Shown here: positions 3-14,284 of the stretch, one piece after another | Layout: each line of letters begins with the position of its first letter | Numbering within the stretch: position 1 is the stretch's first letter | DNA from: an uncultured Desulfovibrionaceae bacterium | GTDB lineage: Bacteria > Desulfobacterota > Desulfovibrionia > Desulfovibrionales > Desulfovibrionaceae | Assembly (NCBI GenBank): GCA_944325195.1 | Contig: CALUZB010000002.1 | Span: 1 to 64,000, forward strand | Direction: 5' to 3' | DNA length: 64,000 bases | Translations under genes and position numbers: made by a program | The notes under the pieces: generated by a model | The model's database searches: none | Seen by the model: the letters and a program-made list of their open reading frames with translations, nothing else | Told to the model about the DNA's origin: nothing

Positions 3-173
3 ACGCATGAGGCTATGGACGGCAAAACCTTCCCTCTTGACAAGGGACTGTATGATTCGGCTGTTAACCGTTATGTGCTGCCTGCCGAACTGCCGAATTG
101 CCGCTGTATTTACCGGCGCGTGCTGCCTCCCGTCGGGCACGGGAAAATCAGACCGGACGGGAACGCCCCTTGA
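3..173 (+). CDS. Phage head morphogenesis protein, MuF-like, C-terminal end only
   Basis: The first open frame in the window enters at the left edge and ends at the TGA at 171-173, giving the last 56 residues of a protein. It reads HEAMDGKTF near the start and ends with an LPNCRC motif and a short polar tail. The pairing of a H-x-x-MDG motif with a downstream P-N-C-R-C motif is the signature of the C-terminus of phage Mu gpF-like minor head proteins, which sit at the portal and act in head assembly and DNA ejection. The 5' part lies outside the window, so length and any fused toxin domain cannot be judged. A prohead-protease-like gene 3 kb downstream supports a phage head module. Confidence 0.72.
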   Translation, partial: THEAMDGKTFPLDKGLYDSAVNRYVLPAELPNCRCIYRRVLPPVGHGKIRPDGNAP

Positions 174-272: not shown

Positions 273-881
273 CTAACTCCACTCCATTGGCTTAAATATA
301 TTTGTTCCATCCGGAAGTGTGAGTGTGTCCGGCAGTTGATTGTTTTGCAGGTGACGCAATTTTATCTTAGCGGAGGAATGACAATGATTTCTAAGGTCAA
401 TAGGAGACCTGTTCATTGGCGTAATTACCTTGATGTGTTTGTGAGGGGCTAAATCCTTTAGAGCTTTTACTCCCGCTATCATGTCGCTGTCCCCGCTGAA
501 CAGCAAAATTTTATCAAAAGTATTCCTACCGGCTTCCAGGAGCATCTTGACCGCGATATTAACGTCAGTCTCTTTTTCTTCATAGGTTTTATACTGCTTG
601 TGGCAAAGGCGACATTCGCGGGAAACTTCCTTGAATTTCCCATAAATGACTTTTACACCATACAGTTCTTGCGCCCTGATAAAAAATTTATGTCGACTGG
701 CCTTTGCAGCGTCCCAAGGGATAACCGCCGTGAAGTAAAACACATCTACAAGCTGTTCTTTGCTTGGAGCTATAAAAGCCTCAGCAAGCGAGAAATAGTT
801 AAGCCATTTCAGCTTAGGACAAACTTCACGCACAGAATGATAGAGATTAAAGCCATCAATAAAAGCAGCTATACGAATCAA
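273..881 (-). CDS. NYN domain (PIN-like) putative ribonuclease
   Basis: This 202-residue protein has the NYN/LabA-type PIN-like fold motifs. An N-terminal FIDGFNLYH supplies the first acidic residue. A central EKETDVNIAVKML supplies a further acidic residue on the substrate face. LFSGDSDM follows as the next conserved acidic motif. A C-x2-C pair (CRLC) lies just before the central motif. NYN proteins are metal-dependent RNases or RNA-binding proteins of varied roles. I chose the TTG at 881 because a GGAG lies six bases upstream of it; a second TTG at 893 lacks this spacing. A terminator hairpin lies immediately upstream. The gene is opposite in direction to the flanking phage head genes, which suggests a cargo gene with its own expression. 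Family assignment is firm; substrate is unknown. Confidence 0.82.
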   Translation of the reverse strand: MIRIAAFIDGFNLYHSVREVCPKLKWLNYFSLAEAFIAPSKEQLVDVFYFTAVIPWDAAKASRHKFFIRAQELYGVKVIYGKFKEVSRECRLCHKQYKTYEEKETDVNIAVKMLLEAGRNTFDKILLFSGDSDMIAGVKALKDLAPHKHIKVITPMNRSPIDLRNHCHSSAKIKLRHLQNNQLPDTLTLPDGTNIFKPMEWS

Positions 882-895
882 TATGTTCTCCAAAT

Positions 896-925
896 AAAAA
901 AACCCGGCTCCGCAGGGAAACCGGG
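896..925 (-). terminator. Intrinsic terminator, leftward
   Basis: On the minus strand a CCCGG arm and a CCGGG arm enclose a 13-base loop, and a run of seven T follows directly. This is a standard rho-independent terminator shape. It lies just upstream of the start of the NYN gene, so it would stop leftward transcripts coming from further right. Confidence 0.65.
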
Positions 926-1202
926 GCTCTTACGACGCCAGTCAGTAAGAGGGGGTTGGTCTACAACTAACCATATTAATTCAATATGTCAATGGGGCTA
1001 TAAGAAAAATTTGGCCAGTTCCGGCAACTGACAAAAATTACAATTTTTGACATCCTCCCCCGCCTGAAGTCGAAGAGGGCGTCAAGAGCAAACTGCTATT
1101 TTAGCACTTTGCCCCCCTCAAACGTCTTCCGCCTTCTAAAATATATGCTATGATTAATTCGAATTTTAAAGAAAGGGCGTAAAACGCTGATATCAGGGAG
1201 AA
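926..1202. other. Non-coding stretch between NYN gene and small membrane protein
   Basis: No credible gene is visible here. A perfect 8-base inverted repeat (CAAAAATT/AATTTTTG) lies near 1034-1051. It is followed by TGACATCCTCCCCCGCCT, whose complement ends in GGGGGAGGATGTCA. That string resembles the ends of IS200/IS605-family elements and may be a remnant. The stretch around 1140-1165 is AT-rich. Confidence 0.45.
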
Positions 1203-1436
1203 TCAGTCGGCGGAATTACCGAGGTGAAGCGAAAGATTAAGCGGGTATTTCCCGGTCAGGCTGAAGACCAGACGAGAGGACAGGTAGATGATGCCGAAAC
1301 CGACAATTGCCAGGGGCAACGCCGCCGCCAACGCGACACAGGCCGGAATGCACAGGCATTCTTTAAACGCGGATTTGAGCCCGCGCGGTTTGAAGTTGTC
1401 CGTTGCGACATCAGACAGTCGGGTGATTTTAGCCAT
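1203..1436 (-). CDS. Small single-pass membrane protein, unknown function
   Basis: This 77-residue protein starts at an ATG with an AGAGGAG ribosome site about seven bases upstream. Residues 1-25 are polar and basic (MAKITRLSDVATDNFKPRG). Residues about 28-55 form one long hydrophobic span rich in Ala, Leu, Ile and Val, probably a single membrane helix or a short hairpin. A short polar tail follows. I do not recognise a family. It lies in the group of small opposite-strand genes within the phage head module. The strong ribosome site is the main reason to call it real. Confidence 0.5.
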   Translation of the reverse strand: MAKITRLSDVATDNFKPRGLKSAFKECLCIPACVALAAALPLAIVGFGIIYLSSRLVFSLTGKYPLNLSLHLGNSAD

Positions 1437-1468
1437 TGCCGGGCTCCTCTGAGCGACAAGGGACTTTT

Positions 1469-2053
1469 TTATTTTTGTCCACGTCTTGTTTTTATTCTCC
1501 CCGGAAGGGTGAACAGGTAAATGTATAACATTTCGGCGAAGTCAATAATATCTTCAGCGTCCTGCTTTGTATGCGGCGTTCCGTCGTGCGCGGCGTTGTT
1601 GCCGATGGTGCGTATTTCATGCGCCCAGTCCGCCAAATCCGGGGTGATGATATGACGCGCGGCCAAATCGTTGATTTTTTCTTTAAGGTTATTCCCTTTT
1701 GCCTCAAGCGATTTAACGGCGGCTTCAAGCGAGGCTCTGGCCATGATGGACGCGGCTTTGTAGTTGCCGGTGCGCAGACAGGACGCCGCCTCTTCAAAGT
1801 CATGCGCGGCTTGTTCAGGAGTGAACTCAGGCGCGCGTTCAATATCAGGCGCGGGGTAACATGTATTAAACGCTTTAAACGGGAAATTGCCGTTGTGATT
1901 AATGACATGACCTTCCAGGTAAATTCCCCTTTTGCAATTGGCGCATATCCACGCGCTGACGTAGGGGTGAAATCCGGTCTGAGCGAGAAGATAAAACGTT
2001 ATTTCGCGACTATGACAGTGCGGACATTCAGGGAGGACAGTTATGGCAACCAT
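1469..2053 (-). CDS. Zinc-ribbon DUF4145-type protein
   Basis: The likely protein is 194 residues from the ATG at 2053. An open frame continues upstream to 2293, but that extension is Cys/Ser-rich, unlike the rest, and lies over a rightward gene. The N-terminus carries a zinc-ribbon pair, CPHC and CANC, spaced about 25 residues apart. The second half is helical and contains the DUF4145 signature: a stretch like ASCLRTGNYKAASIMARAS, then IRTIGNNAAHDG and an E-D-A-x-D-I-x-D-F-A segment. DUF4145 domains occur alone or attached to restriction and other defence-related enzymes; their activity is not settled. The gene starts head-to-head with the rightward small gene at 2043 and overlaps it by 11 bases. 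Only a weak ribosome site is visible. Confidence 0.68.
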   Translation of the reverse strand: MVAITVLPECPHCHSREITFYLLAQTGFHPYVSAWICANCKRGIYLEGHVINHNGNFPFKAFNTCYPAPDIERAPEFTPEQAAHDFEEAASCLRTGNYKAASIMARASLEAAVKSLEAKGNNLKEKINDLAARHIITPDLADWAHEIRTIGNNAAHDGTPHTKQDAEDIIDFAEMLYIYLFTLPGRIKTRRGQK

Positions 2054-2261
2054 TAAAGAAGCAACCTTAATCGAAAGAGAAGCCGAACGGCAGATACAAA
2101 TTTTAATTTCCGACAAACAACCGGCGCAGGAATTGTTTGAAGCGTATATCCAAGCGCAGGACAAAGAAGCGTTCGCCGCCGGATTGATTGGAAATCTTAT
2201 CTTGCGGCACAAACAATGGCAAGCTGAAAAAAGACGGGCAAAATGCCAAGCGCGCATGTGA
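2043..2261 (+). CDS. Small helical protein, unknown function
   Basis: This 72-residue protein starts at an ATG preceded by GGGAGGA at good spacing. It is highly charged and probably all helical, with an N-terminal TIKEATLIEREAERQIQIL segment and a basic C-terminus (EKRRAKCQAR). No family is recognised. It lies opposite and head-to-head with the DUF4145 gene and precedes another small rightward gene by 17 bases, so the two may be cotranscribed. Confidence 0.5.
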   Translation: MATIKEATLIEREAERQIQILISDKQPAQELFEAYIQAQDKEAFAAGLIGNLILRHKQWQAEKRRAKCQARM

Positions 2262-2278
2262 GCAACAAAGGAGACGTC

Positions 2279-2473
2279 ATGGAAGTTGAACAAATCAGAT
2301 TATTTGTTGAATTGGTTATGCGTCAATTAAAAGGCTTCGTGCCCAAGGGGGGATATGTTCACTTCAATCTTAATACATATATTAGTGACCCTCAGCGTGT
2401 AGAGTTTGACGTTATTCAAAGCTTTGATGAGGAAGATCAACTACCACCTCAAATTGAACTCTTGAAACTGTAG
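2279..2473 (+). CDS. Small acidic protein, unknown function
   Basis: I place the start at the ATG at 2279, which follows AAAGGAG at good spacing, giving 64 residues. An in-frame ATG at 2243 lies inside the upstream gene and has no ribosome site. The protein has an N-terminal helix (MEVEQIRLFVELVMRQ), then a region of alternating hydrophobic residues (YVHFNLNTYI) and an acidic tail. No family is recognised. Confidence 0.48.
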   Translation: MEVEQIRLFVELVMRQLKGFVPKGGYVHFNLNTYISDPQRVEFDVIQSFDEEDQLPPQIELLKL

Positions 2474-2500
2474 CCGTGAGACGCTGGAATCGGAGCTTTT

Positions 2501-2872
2501 GTGGAAAACATCGAAAAAATATCCGTTACGGCGGCGTTTTTCCTGCCGGGGACGGGACTGATTCTGGACGTGCAGGAACGCGCTGATGATTTTTGGATGT
2601 TTTTAGGCGAGCTGGTGGGCTGGGGACGCTTCGCCCCGCGCACGCGACGCAAGCCGGACTGTATTATGCCAACAGCTTTTGAATTAGTTGAAGTGCGTCC
2701 GGAGTTCTGCCCAGCGCCAAGTCCAGTAGTTTACATACCAAATGCTTTGTGGCGTCGTAAGGAAGTTCTCGAAACCGAGCGATATAATGCTTTTTTTGAG
2801 GCTCTGGCAGATGTGATTGTGCAAGAAACTTCTCAACCCGTGCAAGAGTTTCGTCATGAATGCGCACGGTAA
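2501..2872 (+). CDS. Hypothetical protein, doubtful over its second half
   Basis: A GTG start with GGAG six bases upstream opens a 123-residue frame. The first 54 residues lie in otherwise empty sequence and look protein-like (a TAAFFLPGTGLILDVQERAD segment). The remainder runs opposite to the well-supported leftward gene that ends at 2664. Either the gene is real and the two converge with a 209-base overlap, or an older gene lost its own 3' end when the neighbour came in. No family is recognised. Confidence 0.28.
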   Translation: MENIEKISVTAAFFLPGTGLILDVQERADDFWMFLGELVGWGRFAPRTRRKPDCIMPTAFELVEVRPEFCPAPSPVVYIPNALWRRKEVLETERYNAFFEALADVIVQETSQPVQEFRHECAR

Positions 2873-3167
2873 CGCAGTTCAGTATGGCGGAAAGGCCGCC
2901 GTCCTCTTCAAGGAAATCAATGCCTTTGCAGGTTATGCGCATTCCGTCCCGCGAAAACTGGTATCCGCCGGAGCCGTTGGGGATGAGACCGCTGATGATG
3001 AGTTCATGCTCCTCAAGGTAGATAAGGTTGCCGATAACATCAACCCGGTCAATATTTTCACTGAAAGCTTCAAACTCTTTAAACACCGCGATGTCAGTGC
3101 GGGAGACGGGGTAGGATTTTTTCAGGAGACACAAAATAAAGCATTGCAGTTCACGGTTTATTTTCAT
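2664..3167 (-). CDS. Phage-associated protein with probable winged-helix fold
   Basis: This is a 167-residue protein. Residues 1-90 have the layout of a winged-helix domain: a helix (CFILCLLKKSYP), a second helix (IAVFKEFEAF), a strand-rich wing (LIISGLIPNGSGGYQFSRDG) and an ITCKGIDFLEEDGG segment. The C-terminal half is helical, with a short LPEPQKKHYIARFRELP segment that resembles the tails of small phage-encoded proteins of this kind. The role is not known; a DNA-binding or transcription role is inference from the fold only. The gene diverges from the large phage ORF at 3218, with 50 bases between the two starts. Confidence 0.62.
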   Translation of the reverse strand: MKINRELQCFILCLLKKSYPVSRTDIAVFKEFEAFSENIDRVDVIGNLIYLEEHELIISGLIPNGSGGYQFSRDGMRITCKGIDFLEEDGGLSAILNCVTVRIHDETLARVEKFLAQSHLPEPQKKHYIARFRELPYDATKHLVCKLLDLALGRTPDALQLIQKLLA

Positions 3168-3217: not shown

Positions 3218-6200
3218 ATGATCGCCCAGCCCGCCCTATCCATCACCGAAGCGGCCGACGCCATAGTCTGGCGCACTGCCGAGAACGGCAAACATTTTCA
3301 GATTGATACCGAGACCGGCGAGATTGTTAAGGGAAACGTCGGGCAGGAGAACTTACACCGTGAGTTTCGCTCTTTGGAAGCCACAAGGCCGGATACAGAG
3401 CATTATAACGCTTTGCTGCGGGAGCATGGCGGAGACCATTTTGAAGCGGCCAAGGAATTTTTCAGAACAAGGTTACAGGGGACAACTATGAGCGCAACAG
3501 CGGAGCAAGGGCAAGTTGAAGTGCATTTCACCGGAGGGACTTGGAAGGAAATTAAACGCGGGATTAAATCCGACCCGTTAAAGGCGGAAATGGTACCGCA
3601 TATGCCGGATATTATTGCGACAGGTCAATATCGTAAAAGGGAACTGCACAAGAAGCGTGATGACGGCACAGTAGCTTTCCATGAATACCGGAAAACCGTC
3701 CAGACCAGCCAAGGGCCGCGTGAAGTGATTGTGGACGTGGCAGAGAGAGAAGGCGCAGAACCAAAGTTCAGTACTTACAACATGATCCGTGAAGGCGGGC
3801 GCGGTTACGCCGAGCGTATAAGCCACGATGAAAAAGAAAGCAGCGTTACCTTCCCGTCTTCAGGTTCGAGCCTCATCATGCAAGATAACGCCGCTTCATT
3901 TGATAATAATATAGAGCCGTTTTTTGAAGTTGTCAACCTGAGATTCGCGGATGAAGGACAACAAACAGACCGCCCACAGACGGGCGTATCAGACAAAAAC
4001 AACCACGCCATAGCCTTCGACGCGTCGCCGAGCGCGCGGCGGATTGACGAAAACGGCTACCTGCATGTGGGGGCGTCGCACATCACCAAGGCCACGGTCA
4101 ATCCCTACTACGGCCGGGAAATACCCGGCTGGGAAGAAGCCGGGCTTGAGCCGGACAAAGTATATTACGGGTTGCGCGCGCCTGAGGAGTTGGAAAAATC
4201 GCTCTCCACCTGGAGCGGTCTGCCCCTGCACATCGAGCACCACATCGACAGCGCCCGCGAGCCCCAGAAATGGACGCGGGTGGGGGCGGTGGGTACGCAG
4301 ATTGTCTGGAACCCGCCCTATGTGGACGCGCCCCTGGTGGTGTGGGACGCCTCGGCCATCGGCGGCATCGAGGACGGCTCTTATCGCGAGCTTTCCTGCG
4401 CCTACCGCTACGAGCCGGACTTCACGCCGGGCGAATTTGAGGGGCGGCCGTATGACTTTGTGATGCGCGATATCCGGGGCAACCATGTGGCCCTGGTGGA
4501 GGAAGGCCGGGCCGGGCCGGACGTGCTGGTGGCGGACGCCAATATCGTGGCCCTTGACGACCGTTGGATAACGGTTAAGCCCAACGGCCCGAACAATACC
4601 GGCCGTCCCGCGTTGATTGATGAAAACGGGAATGTCAAGGCAGGCATGGGCGGTAAATTTAACGGGCGCAATATCGACGATATCCCGCGCGGTAAGAACC
4701 CGCACCCTCAAACGGAAGAGAAGTATCAGGCCAGACAGAAACGCCTGGAGGGCAAGTCTTCTGAGGCCACCGTCAAGCAGACGTCCGCTCAACCCGCCAA
4801 AAAATTTGAGGGCGTCCCCCGTCCCGTGTCGGAAGTGGAAAAAGATATCAAAAAAACTGAAAAAGAACTGGCTGATCACGAAAGGGATATCAGATTATCG
4901 GAAAGCAATCTCCAAAGATATGAAAGTCAGCTTGGAAATCCGGCGCTATATGGGAACCAGGCACCGTCCATACGGAAGGACGCGGAATTTGAGCGCTCCC
5001 GCCTTGAAAAAAGTTCAAAGAAACGGGACGAGCTGACCGCGAAACTGGAGAAGCTTAATTCTGAACGGGAAGCGGCCAATGCGACAGGTTCCGAAGTGAA
5101 GAATTCCGGGCAAAATCCGGTTAAACCAACCGCCCCGGAATGGTGGACGGATATGAAATCCAATTCCGGAGACGGATACTGGAACGGGAAATTCTACAGC
5201 GGCAACCGGGTTTATGTGGGTGGAAAGGAGCGCAAGCTCTCCGACGCGCAGCGCAAAGAGCTGGAAACATATACGTCGGAACTCAAGAAATACAAAGTGC
5301 AGGCTCAGGCTGCCGAATCGGAAAGACGCAACACCGCCGGGAATACTTATCTCAACGTGCCTTACGAAAATCGGGAGCTTGCGAAAAGCTTAGGCGCGAA
5401 GTGGAACCCGGAGCGCAAGCAGTGGTACATGCCGGAGGGGGTGCAAGTACCGACTGAGCTGAAAAGGTATTCCCGGTCACGGGAATGGCATGCCGCTGCT
5501 GTACGGGAGAAAGCCCGGATTGAGAACATGAAAAAAGAGGCGGCCGAGACGGAAAAAGACCTTGAGGCTCTGCGGCGGCGGGGGCTCGACACTGCAGTCT
5601 CGACACAAAGACTGCAAAGGCTCAGAGGGGAAATTCTGCGGGCTTCCGCCAACCTTGAAAGCTCCCTGACAAAAGCGGGGATGAGCTATGAGGAAGTCGG
5701 AAAAGGGCAAGACAGTTCTTTAGCCAAAGACGGCGAAAGAATTAATCCAATAAAAAAAGGTGGAATTATGGGAAAATTAAAAAAGTGGTTCCGGGGCGCG
5801 CTGGACGACGACCCGGGGGTTGAACAGCGGGAAGTGGATTTGGCGCAGGCGATCATCGACCTGCACCGGCTTGACCCGGTGAGCGGCGAAATTGTGGACG
5901 TCACTGAGGATGAGGACAAAAACGCCGCAATCAGAAAACTCATTGACGAGCTTGCGGGCAAGCTGGGGCCGGAGGATACCAAACGTCTGACCGACGCCCT
6001 GACCGACCTGGCCTACAGCAAGGCCACCGGCGACGAGGAACCGGACGGGAGCGCGTCCCCCGGCCTGGATGCGGATAACGACGAGCAGAAGAATTTCGCC
6101 GAAGGCGTGGAGTACGGCGAGAAGCTGGAGCGCACTCCGGAAGAGCGGGAAAAACTCGACCGGGAGCACGAGAGCGAGGGCATGAAGCGCGCCATGGACG

Positions 6201-6829
6201 CCTGCGGTCTGGATTCGGAAGACCCCAATGAGGCCCGTGCTTTTGCGGAAGGCGTGAAGTACGGCGAGGAAAAGGGCAAGGCCGCCGCGGATAAGCCGGT
6301 GGAAGACGAAGAACCGGCCGCCGCGACCCGTCCGGCCGAGGACCGGGCTTTGCGCCGTGGCGCCCGCTCCGGACGCGGGTTCGGGGCAATGGATGCGGCG
6401 GCTTTGCGCGCGGCCGCCACTGCCGACGCGGTGGAAAATATCCGGGCCGTGACCATTGCCGCTCAGCAGGTGCGGCCGTTAATCGGTGAAGTCAATCCCC
6501 TGGCCTTTGACTCCGCCCGGGAACTTTACCGCTACGCGCTCAAGGAGTTGGGGCGCAACCCGGCCCGCTACGACCCCCGCGCCTGGGGCGCAATGATTGA
6601 GGTTATGGCGCAAGAGCGCGCGAACGCGTCCCTCGGCGGCGCGGGCGGGCAGGTGTATGTGGACAAGACCAACGGTAAAATTCTGGCGGCGGGGCTGAAG
6701 GAGAACAGGAATGAACGGCGCCTTGACGCAGGGGAAAAATTATTCAAAGTGTATTTATATAAAAGAGGGGAGAGCATGGAATTCATCTGGGATATGCGGA
6801 AAGCTGCCACCTCTGAGAGGAGAAAATAA
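3218..6829 (+). CDS. Fused phage protein: nuclease-toxin-like domain, DUF2213 protease-like domain, DUF5710 and scaffold-like tail
   Basis: This 1203-residue frame has several parts. Residues 1-60 resemble the glycine-poor linker near MuF C-termini (HFQIDTETGEIVKG). Residues about 95-200 resemble the phage Barnase/EndoU/ColicinE5/RelE-like nuclease domains found on MuF proteins (MPDIIATGQY, FHEYRKTV). Residues about 260-445 are a DUF2213 domain, related to phage prohead proteases, with HIEHH, YRELSCAYRYE and RGNHVALVEEGRAGPDV. Then comes a long charged coiled coil (about 535-620), a DUF5710 domain near 710-740 (TYLNVPYENRELAKSLGAKW), more coiled coil, and from about 848 an acidic scaffold-like region opening MGKLKKWF. 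DUF2213 proteins usually run straight into such a tail, so the middle looks inserted. The last 17 codons are a BrnT remnant with its own ribosome site. The ribosome site at 3218 is weak. The domain names are from recall. Confidence 0.75.
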   Translation: MIAQPALSITEAADAIVWRTAENGKHFQIDTETGEIVKGNVGQENLHREFRSLEATRPDTEHYNALLREHGGDHFEAAKEFFRTRLQGTTMSATAEQGQVEVHFTGGTWKEIKRGIKSDPLKAEMVPHMPDIIATGQYRKRELHKKRDDGTVAFHEYRKTVQTSQGPREVIVDVAEREGAEPKFSTYNMIREGGRGYAERISHDEKESSVTFPSSGSSLIMQDNAASFDNNIEPFFEVVNLRFADEGQQTDRPQTGVSDKNNHAIAFDASPSARRIDENGYLHVGASHITKATVNPYYGREIPGWEEAGLEPDKVYYGLRAPEELEKSLSTWSGLPLHIEHHIDSAREPQKWTRVGAVGTQIVWNPPYVDAPLVVWDASAIGGIEDGSYRELSCAYRYEPDFTPGEFEGRPYDFVMRDIRGNHVALVEEGRAGPDVLVADANIVALDDRWITVKPNGPNNTGRPALIDENGNVKAGMGGKFNGRNIDDIPRGKNPHPQTEEKYQARQKRLEGKSSEATVKQTSAQPAKKFEGVPRPVSEVEKDIKKTEKELADHERDIRLSESNLQRYESQLGNPALYGNQAPSIRKDAEFERSRLEKSSKKRDELTAKLEKLNSEREAANATGSEVKNSGQNPVKPTAPEWWTDMKSNSGDGYWNGKFYSGNRVYVGGKERKLSDAQRKELETYTSELKKYKVQAQAAESERRNTAGNTYLNVPYENRELAKSLGAKWNPERKQWYMPEGVQVPTELKRYSRSREWHAAAVREKARIENMKKEAAETEKDLEALRRRGLDTAVSTQRLQRLRGEILRASANLESSLTKAGMSYEEVGKGQDSSLAKDGERINPIKKGGIMGKLKKWFRGALDDDPGVEQREVDLAQAIIDLHRLDPVSGEIVDVTEDEDKNAAIRKLIDELAGKLGPEDTKRLTDALTDLAYSKATGDEEPDGSASPGLDADNDEQKNFAEGVEYGEKLERTPEEREKLDREHESEGMKRAMDACGLDSEDPNEARAFAEGVKYGEEKGKAAADKPVEDEEPAAATRPAEDRALRRGARSGRGFGAMDAAALRAAATADAVENIRAVTIAAQQVRPLIGEVNPLAFDSARELYRYALKELGRNPARYDPRAWGAMIEVMAQERANASLGGAGGQVYVDKTNGKILAAGLKENRNERRLDAGEKLFKVYLYKRGESMEFIWDMRKAATSERRK
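6776..6829 (+). pseudogene. brnT toxin remnant, fused in frame to the end of the phage ORF
   Basis: An ATG at 6776 follows GAGGGGAG at good spacing and opens a 17-residue peptide, MEFIWDMRKAATSERRK. The first residues match the typical start of BrnT RNase toxins (MxFxWDxxKA). The end (RKAATSERR) resembles the BrnT C-terminal ARKATxxER segment, so the middle of the gene seems to be deleted. The gene just downstream is a BrnA-type antitoxin, the normal partner in this order. The upstream phage ORF reads through this remnant in the same frame and shares its stop codon. Confidence 0.55.
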
Positions 6830-6831
6830 CC

Positions 6832-7029
6832 ATGCGCGACGAGTACGATTTTTCCGAAGGTATTAAGAATCCGTATGTCAAAAAGGAAAAGACCACAGCG
6901 ACAATCCGGCTGGACAGAGCGACTGCGGCCTGGTTCAAAAAACTGATTGAATAAGTGGATATGCCCTATCAGAACTTGACAAACGCTTATCTGGCCGATT
7001 GCGCGGCCAAACGAAAAAGCCGGTGCTGA
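6832..7029 (+). pseudogene. BrnA-type ribbon-helix-helix antitoxin, interrupted by an in-frame stop
   Basis: An ATG with GAGGAG about nine bases upstream begins a CopG/BrnA-like antitoxin: EYDFSEGIKNPYVKK, then TTATIRLDRATAAWFKKL, which is the ribbon and first helix. A TAA at 6952-6954 ends the frame after 40 residues. Reading past it in the same frame gives VDMPYQNLTNAYLADCA and a basic tail ending at TGA 7027-7029, which is the normal second helix of the family. A single nonsense change therefore separates an otherwise intact gene. The 40-residue product would lack the second helix needed for dimerisation. Confidence 0.68.
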
Positions 7030-7655: not shown

Positions 7656-7710
7656 GTTATGTGTTCAGTTTTAATGTGGGTCTTGCCCGATATTGAAAGG
7701 TGGGTGCTTC

Positions 7711-8898
7711 ATGAATGAATTGGCCATAAACGGTGGTAAGCCGGTACGTAAAACTCTGCTGCCTTATGCTACGCAATCGATAGATGAAAATGATATCAAT
7801 GAAGTAGTGAAGGTTTTGCGCGGTTCCTGGTTGACTACCGGACCGGCGGTCAAAGCATTTGAAGAGAAGCTTTGCGACTATACCGGGGCGAAATACGCGG
7901 TGGCGGTCAACACCGGAACCGCCGCGCTGCATGCCGCTTCCGCCGCCTTGGGCATCGGACCCGGCGATGAGGTGATTGTTCCGGCGATTTCTTTTGTCGC
8001 CAGCTCTAACTGCATTCTTTATCAGGGGGCAACACCTGTTTTTGCCGATCTTGACCCGGTTACGCTCACCATTGCTCCCGACGATGTCGCCCGCAAGCTC
8101 ACGCCCCGAACCAAAGCGATTGTAGCGGTTGACTATGCCGGGCAGCCCTGTAATTACGACGCGCTTGATCAGATTGCGCGAGAGCACGGCATACCCGTTA
8201 TTGAAGATGGGGCACATTCTCTGGGCGCTGCTTACAACGGCAGAAAAGTAGGGACCTTGGAGGATCTTACCATACTGAGCTTTCACCCGGTCAAACATAT
8301 CACTACTGCTGAGGGCGGGGCGATTTTAACTGATTCATTGGAACGTTGTCAAAAAATGCGCTCGTTCAGGCATCATGGAATTGATCTGGACTTACATGCA
8401 CGCGGCAGCACGAACAGCTGGATTTATGATGTGGTACGGTTGGGATATAATTATAGAATACCCGATACGAGTTGCGCCCTTGGAATCAGCCAGTTGGATA
8501 AAGCAAATATCTGGCTGGAGCGTCGCAGGGAGATAGCGGAGCTGTACTCCCGGCTGCTTGCGGATTTGCCGATGCTGCAGTTGCCGCAAGAGGCGCCGGG
8601 TTGCAATTCCGCCTGGCATCTGTATGTGGTGCGTTTGAATCTCGACAAAATCCGGGTGGGCCGGGCGGAGGTCTTTGCCGCCTTAAGAGCTGAGAATATC
8701 GGGGTTAACGTGCATTATATTCCCATACCCTGGATGACTCTTTATCAGAATTTAGGCTATCGGAAAGGACAGTGGCCGGTGGCGGAACATGAATACGAGC
8801 GCTTGCTCAGTCTGCCGATGTACCCCGGCATGTCTGACAGTGACGTGGAGGATGTGGTGCTTGCCTGCCGCAAAATCTACGCGGCATTCAGAAAATAG
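7711..8898 (+). CDS. pseC: PseC-like aminotransferase, DegT/DnrJ/EryC1 family
   Basis: This 395-residue PLP enzyme is predicted to transaminate a UDP-4-keto-6-deoxy-N-acetylhexosamine, as PseC does in pseudaminic acid synthesis. The N-terminus (INGGKPVRKTLLPYATQSID) and GSWLTTGP are close to PseC. VNTGTAALHAA binds the cofactor phosphate, IEDGAHSLGA holds the PLP-binding aspartate, and SFHPVKHITTAEGG carries the Schiff-base lysine. An ATG at 7711 with AAGGTGGG upstream is preferred over the TTG at 7693. It opens the rightward polysaccharide arm. No PseB dehydratase or PseF/G/I is present in the window, so the exact sugar is inference; other 4-aminotransferases of the family are possible. Confidence 0.8.
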   Translation: MNELAINGGKPVRKTLLPYATQSIDENDINEVVKVLRGSWLTTGPAVKAFEEKLCDYTGAKYAVAVNTGTAALHAASAALGIGPGDEVIVPAISFVASSNCILYQGATPVFADLDPVTLTIAPDDVARKLTPRTKAIVAVDYAGQPCNYDALDQIAREHGIPVIEDGAHSLGAAYNGRKVGTLEDLTILSFHPVKHITTAEGGAILTDSLERCQKMRSFRHHGIDLDLHARGSTNSWIYDVVRLGYNYRIPDTSCALGISQLDKANIWLERRREIAELYSRLLADLPMLQLPQEAPGCNSAWHLYVVRLNLDKIRVGRAEVFAALRAENIGVNVHYIPIPWMTLYQNLGYRKGQWPVAEHEYERLLSLPMYPGMSDSDVEDVVLACRKIYAAFRK

Positions 8899-8918
8899 TG
8901 ACGAGGAAAGCTTCTGTT

Positions 8919-9836
8919 ATGAAATGTCCGGCTTGCCGATGTGAAGATGTCGTATTTAAATTTAAGATAAGGGAGTTCCCTTATTTCTTTTGCCGGGGGT
9001 GTCGTTCCTTATTTATAGAGCCTGAAACTTTAACCCCTGAAGTATATAAAATATACGATCAGAGATATTATGAGAATAATGCGTATGAAGCAGATGATGA
9101 CAAGAAGGGTTACCCTTCCTATGGCGATTCTGAAAAGACCTTAAAAGAGGGCTTCCGCAACAAGTTGCAGGTGATAAAAAAGTATTGCTCCAGTGGGACG
9201 CTGCTGGACGCGGGGGCTGCCTATGGGTATTTCCTGCTCAGCGCACAGAATGATTTCCAGTGCTCCGGTCTGGAGGTAAGCGAATATGCTGCAAGCGTGG
9301 CCCGTGAAAAGTACGCTTTGGATGTGGTGACCGGTTCACTGGAGAAAACAGCTTTTTCGGACGCCCAATTTGATGTTGTCACCATGTGGGATATTGTTGA
9401 ACACATAGTAAACCCTTCCCTGGCGTTGCAGGAAGTATACAGAATATTAAAACCGGGCGGATATCTGTTTATAAGCACAGATAATGCGGCGCATTGGCTT
9501 CCAAGAGTTCTGGGGAGAAGATGGTGGGCTTTGGGGGCTCCATATCATGTTTTCCATTTTTCCAAGCAGGCGTTGGATCAGGTTGCGGTTTCAATAGGGT
9601 TTGAACAGCCTCGTTACCATAAAGATCCGCGCAAATACAGCGTATCGGAAATAATAGCCCACTTTGGGGTCTCATACGGCAGCTCCTTTTTAAACTATCT
9701 GGGCAAGCTTCTTCATAAAATACGTGTGGGGAATATCACTATAAATATAGCCAGGCCGGAACAGTTTATTGCTGTTATTCGGAAAGGTGATGCAGACTTG
9801 AAATCAAATATGCGGTGCCCCCCCCTTAAATTATGA
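8919..9836 (+). CDS. SAM-dependent methyltransferase with N-terminal zinc ribbon
   Basis: This 305-residue protein begins with a zinc-binding knuckle pair (CPAC, CRGC) in residues 1-40, then a class I methyltransferase domain. Motif I is LLDAGAAYGYFLL and an acidic residue follows in CSGLEVSEYAASVA. DVVTMWDIVEHI and ILKPGGYLFI are the later motifs. Proteins of this type modify sugars or lipids in polysaccharide loci. I chose the ATG at 8919 because GAGGAAAG lies upstream; a GTG at 8898 overlaps the previous stop. A decayed copy of residues about 70-140 lies at 10735-10945, so this gene was once duplicated. Confidence 0.8.
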   Translation: MKCPACRCEDVVFKFKIREFPYFFCRGCRSLFIEPETLTPEVYKIYDQRYYENNAYEADDDKKGYPSYGDSEKTLKEGFRNKLQVIKKYCSSGTLLDAGAAYGYFLLSAQNDFQCSGLEVSEYAASVAREKYALDVVTGSLEKTAFSDAQFDVVTMWDIVEHIVNPSLALQEVYRILKPGGYLFISTDNAAHWLPRVLGRRWWALGAPYHVFHFSKQALDQVAVSIGFEQPRYHKDPRKYSVSEIIAHFGVSYGSSFLNYLGKLLHKIRVGNITINIARPEQFIAVIRKGDADLKSNMRCPPLKL

Positions 9837-9950
9837 GGTATCAGATAATGAGGCCGCCTATGATAAGTACACAGGCAGCCTCAGATATGTGTTGAAAGTG
9901 CTTTTGGTAATGTATATTTTTAATTGCAAAATGCTGGTGGAGATAAGCTT
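9837..9950. other. AT-rich spacer between methyltransferase genes
   Basis: The 114-base spacer has no gene. It contains an internal frame remnant without a start and a GGTGGAG site serving the next gene. Confidence 0.3.
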
Positions 9951-10706
9951 ATGGATAAATTAGATTTCTGGAATCAGCGGGCACAGCTTGGAATGGCCGC
10001 CGGAACTAATGATCTTATAGCAAAACAATTAGAAATTAATGCCATCTTGGAATATATTAAAGATAACATGACTATTCTTGATTTTGGATGCGGCAATGGC
10101 ATTACTATGGTGAATATTGCAAAAAAATTTGATGTAAAAATAATAGGAATAGATTTTTCATCGGAAATGGTCGCGCATGCGCGAAAATTGGCTGACAAAG
10201 AGGGTCTTTCGCACAGGCTGGACTTTTTTGTAGGAAATGAAAACGATCTTCTAAAGCTAAATGAAAGATTTGATTTAATTTATACAGAGAGAGCGCTTAT
10301 CAACTTGGACACCTGGGAAAAACAAAAAGATACTATCTTAAACTTATGCTCCTTATTGAAGGATACTGGAAAATACGTGATGTGCGAGGCAAGCAGCGAT
10401 GGCTTGGCGGAAATAAATTTTTTCAGAAAACAGCTCAGTCTGAAAGAAATTATACCCCCGTGGCACAACCGGTATTTAGTTGACATGGAAATCAATTCAC
10501 TTAACTCAACAGGACGTATCAAACTTGAAACCGTCAACTATTTTTCCGGGACCTATTATTTCATTAGTAGAATTATCAATGCCGCTCTGGCGAAAGACAA
10601 AGGGGAAGAACCGGCATATGACGCTCCTGTTAATAAATTGGCTTTTCATCTTTCTTCGATTGGGAAATGCTCTCAATCAAGAATTTGGGTATGGAGCAAA
10701 GCATAA
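9951..10706 (+). CDS. SAM-dependent methyltransferase
   Basis: This 251-residue class I methyltransferase has motif I as ILDFGCGNGITMV, the acidic ribose-binding residue in IIGIDFSSEMVAHA, a LDFFVGNENDL segment and DLIYTERALINL. The ATG at 9951 follows GGTGGAG and is preferred over the TTG at 9924. Its base composition is clearly more AT-rich than its neighbours, with many AAA and ATT codons, which suggests a separate origin within the locus. The substrate is not known; a sugar or small lipid-linked acceptor is inferred from the context. Confidence 0.75.
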   Translation: MDKLDFWNQRAQLGMAAGTNDLIAKQLEINAILEYIKDNMTILDFGCGNGITMVNIAKKFDVKIIGIDFSSEMVAHARKLADKEGLSHRLDFFVGNENDLLKLNERFDLIYTERALINLDTWEKQKDTILNLCSLLKDTGKYVMCEASSDGLAEINFFRKQLSLKEIIPPWHNRYLVDMEINSLNSTGRIKLETVNYFSGTYYFISRIINAALAKDKGEEPAYDAPVNKLAFHLSSIGKCSQSRIWVWSKA

Positions 10707-10734
10707 AATTTCCCATGAATTTTTTCCGAAATAA

Positions 10735-11158
10735 TATCAAGATTTACCCTTCTTATGGAGATTCTGATAATACAATAAAAGATGGTCTCAACAACAAGTT
10801 GGAGTTGATAAAAAAGTATCGTTCCAGCGGAACGCTGGATGCGGCTATTGCTTAGGGGTATTTCCCGCTCAACGCGCAGAATGATTTCCAGTGCGCCGTT
10901 TTGAAGGAAAGCGAATATGCGGCAAGAGTTGACAGTGAAAAGTACGCTATTCCTTCAGACATTAATATTGAAGATGGCGTTTATCTCCGCTCAGATTCAA
11001 TTATTCCGCCGGGGGTTACTCTTGGCCGGGGTTCACTTATTGGAGCCGGTTCTGTTGTATCAAAGGATATCCCCGCTTATGCCGTGGCGGTTGGAGTGCC
11101 GGCGAGGGTTATCGGCGATATCCGTACTTATTTCAATAAAGAAAACAAAGGTGGTTGA
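10735..11158 (+). pseudogene. Chimeric remnant: methyltransferase fragment joined to a hexapeptide acyltransferase tail
   Basis: The first part (10735-10945) aligns in sequence with codons 70-140 of the methyltransferase at 8919: YPSYGDSDNTIKDGLNNKL against YPSYGDSEKTLKEGFRNKL, then IKKYRSSGTL, and NAQNDFQCA with the same spacing. It contains a one-codon loss and an in-frame TAG at 10854. The second part (10946-11158) is the C-terminal turn of a left-handed beta-helix acyltransferase: VTLGRGSLIGAGSVVSKDIP and a GVPARVIG tail. Residues from 10901 to 11158 stay open through the joint. Two decayed genes have therefore been joined by recombination. No function is expected. Confidence 0.75.
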
Positions 11159-11177
11159 GCCTGAATACGATTTGCTT

Positions 11178-11900
11178 ATGAATTCGACGAAAACAAAATC
11201 CAAAGTTCTGTGCATAATACCAGCCCATAATGAGGAAAAGAGTATCGGCTCTCTGCTTAGGGAAACTTCTTCATGTGGTTACGATTTCATCGTTGTCAAT
11301 GATGCCTCAGTTGACAATACGGCCGGCATCGTGAAGTCTTTCGGCGGAAAGCTTCTCTCGCTGCCGGTAAATCTCGGTATCGGCGGCGCTGTTCAGACAG
11401 GGTTTTTGTATGCTTTGCGCAATGGTTATGATTATGTCGTACAATTAGACGGAGATGGCCAGCATAATCCCGCGTTGATCGGCGATATTCTGGCGCCCCT
11501 GCAGAATAATGAGGCTGATTGCGTGATCGGTTCCCGCTATTTGCCGGCAATGCCGGATATTGCGTATAAAACCCCGTTTACCCGCAGGCTGGGGATGTAC
11601 TTTTCCACCTGTATTCTCCAACTGGCCACCGGGATTACCATACATGACACGACCTCCGGATTCAGGGGATTAAACAGAAGAGCATTTTCATATTTTGCCT
11701 ATGAGTATCCTGTGGATCACCCCGAGGCGGAATCCCTGCTTCTTTTACATCGGGAAGGGTTCCGGATATGTGAGGTGCCCACCAGGATGCGCCAGCGGGT
11801 TGCCGGCAAGTCTCTGTTTACCCTGACCAAAGGGCTTATGTATCCATTTCGGGTGATTATCGGATTTTGTGGTATTCTTTTGCGGAGGAAGAGCCGGTGA
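11178..11900 (+). CDS. Glycosyltransferase family 2, polyprenyl-phosphate sugar synthase type
   Basis: This is a 240-residue GT2 enzyme of the dolichyl-phosphate-mannose-synthase-like branch. VLCIIPAHNEEKSIGSLL opens the nucleotide-sugar fold, FIVVNDASVDNTA and VQLDGDGQHNP carry the acidic metal-binding motifs, and DTTSGFRGLNR is a family mark. It probably loads a sugar onto undecaprenyl phosphate at the inner face of the membrane. The start is uncertain: ATG at 11178 has no close ribosome site, and a GTG at 11151 is possible. It overlaps the DUF2304 gene by four bases (GTGA). With the next three genes it forms a lipid-sugar unit. Confidence 0.82.
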   Translation: MNSTKTKSKVLCIIPAHNEEKSIGSLLRETSSCGYDFIVVNDASVDNTAGIVKSFGGKLLSLPVNLGIGGAVQTGFLYALRNGYDYVVQLDGDGQHNPALIGDILAPLQNNEADCVIGSRYLPAMPDIAYKTPFTRRLGMYFSTCILQLATGITIHDTTSGFRGLNRRAFSYFAYEYPVDHPEAESLLLLHREGFRICEVPTRMRQRVAGKSLFTLTKGLMYPFRVIIGFCGILLRRKSR

Positions 11901-12454
11901 GCTTCAGCATCAAGTCGATATTGTTAGTGGTTATTGTTTTCGGAGCCCTGATCGGATATACTTTATATCTGCTGTATGCCCGTAAATTAAGCGCTCACCT
12001 TGCTGTGCGTTGGGCATTGGCTGAGTTGGCGGCACTTGGGTTCATTCTCTTATGGCCCTGGCTGCCGTTCATTCATTGGACATCGCAAATGAGCGACAGG
12101 AAGCTGTTGCTCCTGGTTGTGATCTTTCTTTTCATTTTTCTTGTCTTCCTGCTTCTCTATGCTTTTACGCACATTTCAGCCAACACCGGAAATATCAAGT
12201 TGCTTACGCAGGAAATTGCGCTTTTGCGCGCCGCTGTTCAGGAGGCCGGTATAGATGACCATTCCGGTGTACAGCGGGAATGTGATGCCCGGGCACTTGA
12301 AAGCAACGTGCCGGTAAAAGGCGCTTCCAAAAGGATAAGTTTGAGCGGTATCCTGATTGTTGTGTGGTCTGTATCTTGTGTCCTCGCTTATATTTATAAG
12401 GAAGATCTCCCTGAAAGCTTCAAGGCAATGCTTACAGCCGCCTACCTGGAGTAA
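11897..12454 (+). CDS. DUF2304-type membrane protein
   Basis: The 185-residue protein starts at GTG 11897, after GGAGGA, overlapping the GT2 stop. It has about four membrane spans: near residues 5-25, 35-58, 70-95 and 150-170, with a soluble stretch between the last two. Small proteins of the DUF2304 type often follow GT2 synthases that make polyprenyl-phosphate sugars, and may anchor or regulate them. The longer soluble segment and fourth span are more than the usual DUF2304 core, so the assignment is tentative at the C-terminus. Confidence 0.6.
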   Translation: MSFSIKSILLVVIVFGALIGYTLYLLYARKLSAHLAVRWALAELAALGFILLWPWLPFIHWTSQMSDRKLLLLVVIFLFIFLVFLLLYAFTHISANTGNIKLLTQEIALLRAAVQEAGIDDHSGVQRECDARALESNVPVKGASKRISLSGILIVVWSVSCVLAYIYKEDLPESFKAMLTAAYLE

Positions 12455-12457
12455 AGA

Positions 12458-14284
12458 ATGCCGCTATTTGAGCTATGGCCTTTGCCGGTGTTCATGCTGG
12501 CTTGTCTTGGAGCCGGACATGTCCTTTTTCTGTGCCTGCCGTCTTTACGAAACGATTTTTCAACCACTCTGCTTTTACTGTTCCGGTATTTGGCCGGAAT
12601 GGGAGCATTGATATTTATTCTATTCATTCTGGCTCTTTGCGGTCTTTTTCAGGCGCTGCTCATCTATCCGCTTGTGGCAGTAAGCGCGCTGCTGGGAGCC
12701 GGTATTTTACTGCGCAATGCCCGGAACCTGGCCTTGGAAGCGAAACACGAAGCCTGTGCCCTTTTTCAGGACTCCCCGCTCTGGCTGCTCCTGCTTCTGC
12801 TGTGCTTCGGGGTATGGATTTATTTTTTTGGTGGGCTGGGCACCACTGTTGATGGCGATTCTGTCGCCTTCTATTATGCGCTGGCCAAATTGACGGCAGC
12901 CACAGGACAACTTGCGCCGTTGCCGGGCTATGAGCCTTTTTCGGGAATTACTTTGTACGGCGACATGATCAGCGCTTTATTCATGCTGCTGAAAATGCCT
13001 GATTTTACGCAAAAGATGTATGGTTGGCTGCACATGTTGCCGGCCATACTGTTGTTTTATTCAGTTTTTAAGAAAACATGCGACAGCCGCCGGGCGGGGA
13101 TACTGGCGGCGGTATTTCTATGTAGTTCAACCGCATATCTGTTTTTAACCCCATTCGGTAAGAATGACTCTCTCCCGGTTTCTTTCTGTGTGGCGGCTGT
13201 TTTTTGTTTGCTGCAAGCGGTGTCGGTCAGGGAAACTAAAACCTTGTTTGGCCTGGCCGGATTGTTTGCAGGCTGCGCTGTAGGGATCAAATACAGTTAT
13301 CTGATTATTCTGTGCCCCTGGCTGCTGGTAGTGAGCGTTTATGTGGTTTATAAACAGGTCTCGCTTAATTCATACCGCATATTTATCAGTAATTTTGTGA
13401 AGCTTTCCTGCGTGACCGGCGGCGTATTTCTATTGTTTCTGGCCCCGCACTTCCTTAAAAATATATTATGGTATGGTTCGTTGGTAGGGTTGTCCTCCAG
13501 CCATGTCTATTTCAGCAGCGCCACCACGATACGGTTGTTGTTGCTGTATCCTCTGGCTCTGGTGTATGGAAATTTCTGGGTACAGGGCGGTCATATCACC
13601 CCGTTGCTTCTGGCGCTGCTTCCCTTTGTATTCATGCTTTCCAGAAAGGAGTGGGCGCTTCGGGAAGGTGCTGTGGTTTACTGGCTGGGCGCTTTGGCCG
13701 GGCTGGGAGCCTGGTTGATATTATTCCCATCGGTATTCCAGTTGAGGTATATACTGGCGGTTTATTTATGTCTGGGAATTCCGTTATGGCTCAGCGCCGC
13801 TGCAGTAAGCAAAAAAAGCAAAGCCATGTCTCTCCTCATAGTCATGCTTTCAGTTTTTTCTTTTTATGGTGCCTGGAAACATTCAAAATCAGATTTATAC
13901 CATAACTGGTGGAATACCAGGCAGTATCTTAAATCCGGCGACCCGCTTTTTATATATGGGGGGTTGAGCAGTTTTTATCTGGCTCAAAGCAAATTAAATG
14001 AAACAGCCCCTGAAAACGCGCGCGTATTCTTAATGTATTATCGCTACTGGCTGCGCCCTGACTTGCTGGAGCACGCGCGAAAAACCGGTGACCAAGGCGA
14101 CTTTACAACAAAGGACGGGTTTTGGCCTTTTATTATTGATAATAATTTTTCGTACATTCAAATGGACTCCACAACAACTCATTTGGAAGAATATATTCAT
14201 GAACCGCCGGAAGGAGTGCGCGTCAGCCCGGTTTATGTTAAGGATGAATGCTCCGTAAAAATATATAAGGTGACTGTGGAATGA
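12458..14284 (+). CDS. GT-C fold glycosyltransferase-like integral membrane protein
   Basis: This 608-residue protein has many membrane spans, at least ten, from residue 8 to about 460, then a soluble C-terminal domain of roughly 120 residues. The first large loop holds a GTTVDGDSVAFYYAL segment, in the place where GT-C transferases (ArnT, PMT and relatives) carry catalytic acids. These enzymes use a polyprenyl-phosphate sugar on the outer face of the membrane. Sequence identity to any named family is not recognised, so the role rests on topology, the acidic loop and its place between a polyprenyl-phosphate sugar synthase and a small flippase candidate. The gene follows DUF2304 by three bases and overlaps the next start (ATGA). 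Confidence 0.65.
   Translation: MPLFELWPLPVFMLACLGAGHVLFLCLPSLRNDFSTTLLLLFRYLAGMGALIFILFILALCGLFQALLIYPLVAVSALLGAGILLRNARNLALEAKHEACALFQDSPLWLLLLLLCFGVWIYFFGGLGTTVDGDSVAFYYALAKLTAATGQLAPLPGYEPFSGITLYGDMISALFMLLKMPDFTQKMYGWLHMLPAILLFYSVFKKTCDSRRAGILAAVFLCSSTAYLFLTPFGKNDSLPVSFCVAAVFCLLQAVSVRETKTLFGLAGLFAGCAVGIKYSYLIILCPWLLVVSVYVVYKQVSLNSYRIFISNFVKLSCVTGGVFLLFLAPHFLKNILWYGSLVGLSSSHVYFSSATTIRLLLLYPLALVYGNFWVQGGHITPLLLALLPFVFMLSRKEWALREGAVVYWLGALAGLGAWLILFPSVFQLRYILAVYLCLGIPLWLSAAAVSKKSKAMSLLIVMLSVFSFYGAWKHSKSDLYHNWWNTRQYLKSGDPLFIYGGLSSFYLAQSKLNETAPENARVFLMYYRYWLRPDLLEHARKTGDQGDFTTKDGFWPFIIDNNFSYIQMDSTTTHLEEYIHEPPEGVRVSPVYVKDECSVKIYKVTVE

Follow-up and report, generated by a model that had tools for sequence, protein, structure and literature searches.

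Exchangeable effector-type domains on DUF2213 prohead proteases: a fused phage gene and a possible route of cargo into the head

Why should a phage gene for a head-assembly protease also encode domains of the conflict type, joined to it in one frame? The question is raised by an open reading frame (ORF) lying in bases 1-64000 of contig C2 (hereafter the window, the whole stretch of 64,000 nucleotides that was analysed) from the genome of an uncultured Desulfovibrionaceae bacterium (2.48 Mb, 27 contigs). In this ORF, a leader and an LPD3 domain are followed in frame by the protease domain DUF2213, then by a second leader with a Pepsin-I3-like stretch and DUF5710, and finally by a scaffold-like tail. 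According to our analysis, the ORF encodes a cargo-bearing phage prohead protease-scaffold protein, a reading to which a probability of about 0.6 is given, and the DUF2213 protein would be a further docking place, besides the portal and MuF proteins, for effectors loaded into the virion.

The fused ORF and its modules

It had been proposed from the letters alone (the sequence-only reading) that DUF2213, DUF5710 and a scaffold-like tail are joined to a mobile domain of the conflict type, and this was borne out: all lie in one frame of 1203 codons, and LPD3, DUF2213, Pepsin-I3 and DUF5710 are matched by Pfam above cut-off. When the letters of the ORF were shuffled in 500 trials, the longest open run was 296 codons. 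The parts of the ORF are listed below (HMM, hidden Markov model; i-E, independent E value; pLDDT, predicted local distance difference test).

3218-6829, plus strand: fused ORF, from ATG at 3218 to stop at 6829, 1203 codons in one open frame
3266-3346, plus strand: leader A, preceding LPD3, WRTAENGKHFQIDTETGEIVKGNVGQ (leader HMM i-E 1.4e-14, itself a seed of the profile; three short strands predicted)
3443-3751, plus strand: LPD3 domain, residues 76-178 (PF18798, E 2.9e-13; Pfam scan E 4e-12, 46.8 bits against a cut-off of 27)
about 3218-3955, plus strand: whole LPD3 module (AlphaFold2 core mostly at pLDDT >90)
4037-4537, plus strand: DUF2213 prohead-protease domain, residues 274-440 (PF09979, E 6.9e-46; Pfam scan E 1.7e-44, 152 bits against a cut-off of 22)
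4238-4240 (His), 4394-4396 (Ser) and 4484-4486 (His), plus strand: invariant DUF2213 residues, all three kept in the window copy
4559-4654, plus strand: leader B, opening the slot cargo, WITVKPNGPNNTGRPALIDENGNVKAGMGG (leader HMM i-E 4.4e-8, itself a seed)
5159-5332, plus strand: Pepsin-I3-like stretch in the slot, residues 648-705 (PF06394, above cut-off, E 1e-6)
5345-5446, plus strand: DUF5710 in the slot, residues 710-743 (PF18974, E 7e-13)
5768-6631, plus strand: scaffold-like tail with its nested ATG at 5768, preceded by AAAGGTGG

The borders of these modules agree with those of relatives. PHROG 2229 ("head maturation protease") matches the ORF in two stretches, the best being 261-592, and from residue 846 onward the ORF can be aligned to the tails found in other DUF2213 proteins. 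Several conflict-type domains are recognised by Pfam within this single protein, which would be linked to the virion in the way polyvalent proteins are. No Pfam family was found in the ORF at the leader positions, nor any PBECR match. A pattern scan of viral contigs returned no close relative of the whole protein, and among 595 matching records of cultured phages none covers 80% of it. Pepsin-I3 is rare in the order, where the window holds the sole match above cut-off and one weaker match exists (2 of 342 genomes).

The protease assignment rests on conserved residues and on fold. In an alignment of 53 DUF2213 domains, one for each 80%-identity cluster and with L075 and L095 excluded (L and G numbers are our own handles), H83, S135 and H165 were invariant in 53/53. 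The AlphaFold2 model of the domain (pLDDT 92) superposes on T4 gp21 (5jbl_A) with a Z score of 10.7 and a root-mean-square deviation of 2.7 over 127 residues, and on four herpesvirus assemblin entries with Z 8.2-10.1, while other families start at Z 5.7. Assemblins use Ser-His-His catalytic residues. DUF2213 thus models as a prohead protease of the assemblin/gp21 type, with a predicted role in the proteolysis of head maturation. A distant relative (profile E 4.6e-19) is gp24 of Pseudomonas phage Pa193, which was found in the mature virion by liquid chromatography-mass spectrometry and whose helices, residues 286-326, were observed at the inner five-fold vertices, as described in the accessible part of PMC11042391. 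The family phrog_30637 (1119 positions) is matched by portal proteins at 1-291 and by DUF2213 at about 726-912, and because it matches both, it suggests that portal and protease are fused in one protein in some phages. In Burkholderia cenocepacia, knockdown of a DUF2213 gene led to a growth defect, according to the accessible part of PMC8770471; a prophage-related cause for this defect might be worth considering.

The front domain had been described as a MuF-type nuclease toxin, and on neither count is the description supported. Its family, LPD3, is given as one of unknown function in the accessible text of Iyer 2017 (PMC5512222), and a Pfam scan of the ORF found no MuF domain (PF04233), the MuF end being a separate gene 3 kb upstream. 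LPD3 occurs in 56 of 345 genomes of the order (52 above cut-off), many copies lying in ORFs of 2000-4268 aa; the more distant relatives of the window LPD3 are in ORFs of this size, and the near ones stand behind portals or inside DUF2213 proteins. An origin as a MuF tail was rejected on account of these near relatives, and the MuF proteins beside portal-borne LPD3 in the two loci scanned (L039, L098) contain no cargo domain. Viral LPD3 models rank 1 and 3 when the LPD3 model is compared with BFVD, and Foldseek gave no PDB match at E 0.001 or better. By VIA fold comparison, a contact-dependent inhibition (CDI) toxin comes best at Z 5.0, tied with DotI at 4.9, and RelE-type and NTF2-like folds also appear. 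Such a weak and tied likeness to RelE/CdiA-CT-type toxins, along with PDB profile matches at E >=0.23, led us to reject LPD3 as a proven nuclease; judged from the models, nuclease activity is possible. Neither is the N-terminal part a normal segment of DUF2213 proteins, since front cargo is absent from 97 of the 108 distinct proteins counted.

Cargo, nested scaffold starts and a common leader

At the level of sequence, a survey of DUF2213 proteins demonstrates fusions, nested starts, swapping of cargo, a leader and a domain pool common with portals. It comprised 136 ORFs (from 39 genome loci, 80 viral loci and 17 earlier loci), which were de-duplicated on the DUF2213 domain to 108 distinct proteins forming 55 clusters at 80% identity. 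Extra domains, either ahead of the protease or in a slot behind it, were counted in 17/108. The counts were made by hand judgement, cargo being called from a front extension of >90 residues or from a long tail or late scaffold start; the fronts of about 80 aa in L101, L127 and L128 and the leader behind DUF2213 in L123 were excluded. Also uncounted are unscanned long open stretches ahead of DUF2213 in L019, L078, L108, L136, L139, L143, L150, L153, L159, L161, L165 and L172, among which L108, L139, L143, L153 and L165 resemble read-through or remnants on viewing.

Front cargo was present in 11 proteins spanning 10 of the 55 clusters: LPD3 in the window, L036, L037, L038 (truncated and barely above cut-off) and L111; NUDIX in the Mesorhizobium prophages L084 and L085 and in L162; Acb1 in the Neorhizobium phage L092 (PF23474, E 1.6e-42); DUF5710 in L168; and a leader without recognised domain in L104. 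Slot cargo, placed between the protease and the scaffold start, was present in seven, with LPD3 in L033, L034, L035 and L040, PBECR1 in L060, the Pepsin-I3/DUF5710 module in the window, and in L047 a piece with no Pfam match at E 0.1 and no NCBIfam match. Assignment of this last piece to PBECR was rejected, its relative L048 reaching PBECR1 only at E 0.0096, below cut-off. The slot cargo frames are open over about 200-400 codons. In 89 of 96 proteins that lack front cargo, a start codon stands near the beginning of DUF2213. In the window, L036, L038, L084 and L111, none is found from 16 codons before to 3 after that point, so that the protease of these five would, barring an unusual start, carry at least part of the cargo. 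Among cultured phages, none of 415 records matching an Acb1-DUF2213 query and none of 704 matching a NUDIX-DUF2213 query covers 80% of it. Another fusion of an LPD3 end to a DUF2213 start was seen at L044:4133-4735 (G068), breaking off in a stretch whose translation resembles what we take to be a CRISPR repeat.

The usual layout in the survey is DUF2213 followed by a scaffold-like tail that begins at an ATG. The first in-frame ATG at <=60 residues past DUF2213 is preceded by a Shine-Dalgarno sequence of >=4 nt in 80/99 proteins, against 169/1027 other in-frame ATGs. This test leaves out nine of the 108, namely four without an ATG after the domain and L033, L034, L035, L040 and L060, whose first ATG lies >60 residues on because of the cargo; the ATG examined falls inside cargo in two proteins, that of the window (34 residues on) and L047 (51 residues on). 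At the scaffold start itself, a Shine-Dalgarno sequence was found in 7/7 distinct slot-cargo proteins, measuring 6 nt in L033, L034, L035, L040 and L060, 7 nt in L047 and 4 nt in the window. Because the nested ATGs carry such sites, a separate scaffold product is likely to be general in DUF2213 phages. This resembles the C/Nu3 genes of lambda and the I/Z genes of Mu, in which the scaffold is made from an in-frame internal start within the protease gene; we know of no cargo slot in either.

Exchange of cargo is illustrated by G159 and L060, whose DUF2213 domains are 99% identical and scaffold starts 78% identical, the slot holding LPD3 in the former and PBECR1 in the latter; in G071, with a DUF2213 82-83% identical to both, the slot is empty. 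In a tree of 22 LPD3 modules, the window front copy groups with portal- and slot-borne copies (85/93), the remaining front copies form one group (90/87), and the slot copies of L035 and L040 make a third lineage (98/95), the first two forks not being firmly supported and the labels "portal" (L035) and "fragment" (L043) being taken from neighbouring sequence. Sequence L189 was dropped for stops in its frame, L191 was kept out of the alignment as not LPD3-like, and L187, L198 and L204 were not included. With NUDIX and Acb1 set aside, all 14 cargo segments have a guanine-plus-cytosine (G+C) content 5.5-21 points below that of their own DUF2213 (cargo borders were set by hand). The control, the tails of 84 distinct cargo-free proteins, differed by +2.1 points (standard deviation 3.5), with 1/84 at -8 or lower.

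A leader of the type W-x-T ... G ... G-x-x-G opens 13 of these 14 segments, the exception being the truncated L038. Its profile, built from 18 seeds including leaders A and B of the window, was searched against 8204 ORFs from 206 partly overlapping sources and gave 46 matches at i-E 0.01 (not de-duplicated, seeds included), with none in reversed and none in shuffled copies. De-duplicated at i-E 0.1, there were 28, of which 15 lie in DUF2213 ORFs, 4 in portals and 9 elsewhere. Outside the seeds and their copies, matches occurred in L101 (two), L102, L123, L127, L128 and L138. Leader-bearing separate genes with a papain-fold glutamine-deamidase (Gln_amidase) toxin domain stand between MuF and DUF2213 in L101, L127 and L128, and in L138 the leader precedes a ddrB-ParB domain. 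The cultured Vibrio phage 1.112.O (L229:5560-6894) carries it in a 444-aa gene directly before the portal gene (tblastn E 3e-5), the remainder of this protein giving no significant Pfam match. In these three regions (L101:3217-4988, L127:3292-5006 and L128:3436-5009), the DUF2213 ORF that directly follows the toxin gene opens with the extra domain of about 80 aa, which has no Pfam or NCBIfam match above cut-off (best E 0.038, unrelated) and may represent an immunity protein joined to the protease.

The same pool is found on portals. Proteins of the portal family PF06381 end in LPD3 in L039 and in DUF5710 in L046 according to Pfam, and L098 and L049 have LPD3 behind the portal as judged by sequence and portal profile. 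When 394 genomes from the family of the L092 genome were searched, 43 had a match. Apart from L092, the Acb1 part was matched 21 times at E <=2e-24; 17 of these matches lie in frames of 603-656 aa, and stops interrupt 6 of the 21 frames. The three stop-free frames scanned were all portals ending in Acb1, whereas in L092 Acb1 precedes DUF2213.

A possible route into the head and its rivals

These observations can be joined in the following scheme. DUF2213 would act as a self-contained assembly protease, the scaffold being made in the same frame and also from its own start. Effector domains, mostly with the short common leader, would have been inserted ahead of the protease or in the slot, so that the long form would comprise protease, cargo and scaffold while the scaffold alone could still be made. 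The scaffold part may draw the long form into the growing head, where the protease could cut the cargo free; the cargo would then leave the particle together with the DNA and work in the following host, whose defences are its most likely target. Expression, packaging, cleavage and injection of the cargo are what we infer from this arrangement. On a wider and more tentative view, which we rather doubt at present, a general phage loading system would exist in which a leader of 25-40 aa (W-x-T ... G ... G-x-h-x-x-G-x-x-G) marks exchangeable effector cassettes at the portal C-terminus, the protease front, the slot or a separate adjacent gene; the protease-scaffold route would deliver anti-defence enzymes or toxins in the head, and the leader would serve as a cleavage or docking signal.

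Several findings weigh against the cargo scheme. No cargo was counted in 91/108 proteins, slot cargo is confined to 3 of the 55 clusters, and only the window (1/108) combines front and slot cargo. A start codon lies near the DUF2213 start in 6 of the 11 front cases, and because of this the protease may be made without cargo in those six. The four NUDIX/Acb1 fronts are 2-6 points richer in G+C and have no leader, and LPD3 and DUF5710 are without known activity. Besides, the window copy lacks the conserved C-terminal scaffold motif, and no head gene was recognised after the ORF. Delivery in the virion, as the sequence-only reading had suggested, is a reasonable idea for the family; for the window copy it is unlikely because that copy is decayed.

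The same decay, together with the 91 cargo-free proteins, would also suit a passive mosaicism in which the recombining head region drops portal or other phage domains in frame into the DUF2213 gene, where they are purposeless. As the scaffold can be started by itself, such inserts would be tolerated, and the slot does lie upstream of the scaffold start. This explanation seems fairly unlikely to us: protease and portal draw repeatedly on one small set of conflict-type domains, effectors with the leader exist as separate genes too, leader and domain stay together, the slot frames remain open over some 200-400 codons, and Acb1 and NUDIX are enzyme families possibly useful at infection. A structural role, in which the extra domains regulate the protease or bind packaged DNA and are not injected, is harder still to sustain. 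Binding of proteins or nucleic acid is conceivable for the coiled-coil-like, Pepsin-I3-like and DUF5710 pieces, and the two carriers of cargo, protease and portal, both belong to the assembly machinery; however, PBECR1, Acb1 and NUDIX are enzyme families for which we know of no assembly role, and phages with a near-same protease have no cargo or a different one. The least probable explanation, to which we give very little credence, is an assembly artefact or chance read-through joining unrelated fragments at a contig edge. In its favour, the contig starts inside MuF and the window makes up its first 64 kb, the identical arrangement occurs in no relative, and the 3' end of the ORF consists of fused gene remnants. 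Yet an assembly joint is not needed to explain the front LPD3, because it recurs in L036, L037 (a single-contig genome), L038 and L111; slot cargo is present in six other distinct proteins, and the module borders are those of relatives.

The cargo scheme has partial precedents. DUF2213 models with the fold of the gp21-type protease of T4, a phage whose head-internal anti-defence proteins are co-injected with the DNA, although these are separate polypeptides, unlike the cargo here. In P1, the prohead protease cleaves DarA, a head-internal anti-defence protein that stays in the virion and is ejected along with the DNA (accessible part of PMC12810830); it is thus a precedent for cleaved and co-injected head cargo, but as a separate protein, whereas here the cargo would lie within the protease-scaffold polypeptide. 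Polyvalent phage proteins, with fusions of PBECR and 2H domains to MuF and portal, were described by Iyer 2017 (PMC5512222). They draw, like the DUF2213 proteins, on a pool of LPD3, PBECR and 2H-type domains, and the idea of head-linked effector carriage is common to both. In the part of that paper available to us the simple carriers are MuF and portal, and the term "prohead protease" occurs once, in the reference list; here the carrier is a prohead protease-scaffold with a slot before the nested start. The MuF polymorphic toxins of temperate phages (Jamet 2017, PMC5576092, as far as its accessible text goes) are likewise head-linked, with toxin domains on a minor head protein encoded beside the portal gene; unlike them, the window protein has no MuF domain and its cargo is N-terminal or internal.

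The bare pairing of DUF2213 with LPD3 or NUDIX is not new, since Pfam architectures of DUF2213 with LPD3, with NUDIX and with DUF1073 had been listed in PMC8770471, whose accessible part neither reads them as head cargo nor mentions a nested scaffold, slot or leader, and lists no fusion to Acb1, PBECR1 or DUF5710. In searches of the open-licence literature, no paper was found that joins polyvalent proteins with DUF2213 or describes a cargo slot or leader. As far as that literature shows, the new elements are the slot before the nested scaffold start, the fusions of Acb1, PBECR1 and DUF5710 to DUF2213, the swapping on near-identical proteases, and the leader common to portal, protease and separate effector genes. 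If the cargo scheme is true, the head maturation protease, a core assembly part, doubles as a carrier of injected effectors alongside portal and MuF. The related viruses suggest that it is a repeated mounting place for swappable domains, among them RNA-cutting and anti-defence enzymes, perhaps for travel in the particle. DUF2213, slot and nested scaffold start, together with the common leader, would give a sequence rule for finding unknown anti-defence proteins, any content of the slot or behind the leader being a candidate, and the Acb1 and NUDIX cases make the cargo idea directly testable.

Surroundings and decay of the window copy

The genes and remnants around the ORF are as follows.

3-173, plus strand: last part of a MuF-domain gene, stop codon included (PF04233, matched over model positions 80-110 at E 0.016, short of the curated cut-off); the contig begins inside this gene
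273-893, minus strand: NYN gene (Pfam/PHROG match)
1469-2293, minus strand: DUF4145/HEPN gene (Pfam/PHROG match)
2664-3167, minus strand: phrog_3983-like gene (PHROG match; YjcQ match below cut-off)
6644-6691, plus strand: stretch left over from the following head gene, of phrog_2122 type, and joined to the scaffold end; 14/16 residues are those of the L098 gene (phrog_2122)
6776-6951, plus strand: short brnT-like start, followed by a frame resembling BrnA (E 0.0038, below cut-off) that is stopped early

In the intact relative L033, terminase, portal, MuF-like head protein, DUF2213-scaffold, minor head protein and major head protein follow one another; L034 also has the minor and major head genes, and in L039 and L098 MuF stands directly ahead of DUF2213. 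A minus-strand accessory block at 273-3167 interrupts the head genes between MuF and DUF2213 in the window. There, no complete head module was found, the scaffold end being missing and the next gene reduced to its remnant. In 1000 shuffles none matched the L098 gene as well as this 16-residue remnant did, and the L033 and L034 genes have no match at that place. Elsewhere in the genome, the portal family PF06381 had no match at E 1 (the control matched in 2/14 genomes, none above cut-off), and queries with the L033 capsid and terminase found no relatives, which is weak evidence by itself; MuF matches above cut-off lie on contigs C26, C17 and C7. The best reading of the window copy is a prophage remnant at a contig edge, and because it lies in a decayed prophage, the window protein is now probably a relic.

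The last ~60 codons of the ORF are remnants of other genes. The short start at 6776 resembles brnT by its motif, and a decayed BrnT/BrnA toxin-antitoxin pair is possible at 6776-7029. Further on, five large ORFs (7693-14284) encode an aminotransferase, two methyltransferases, a glycosyltransferase and one protein without match.

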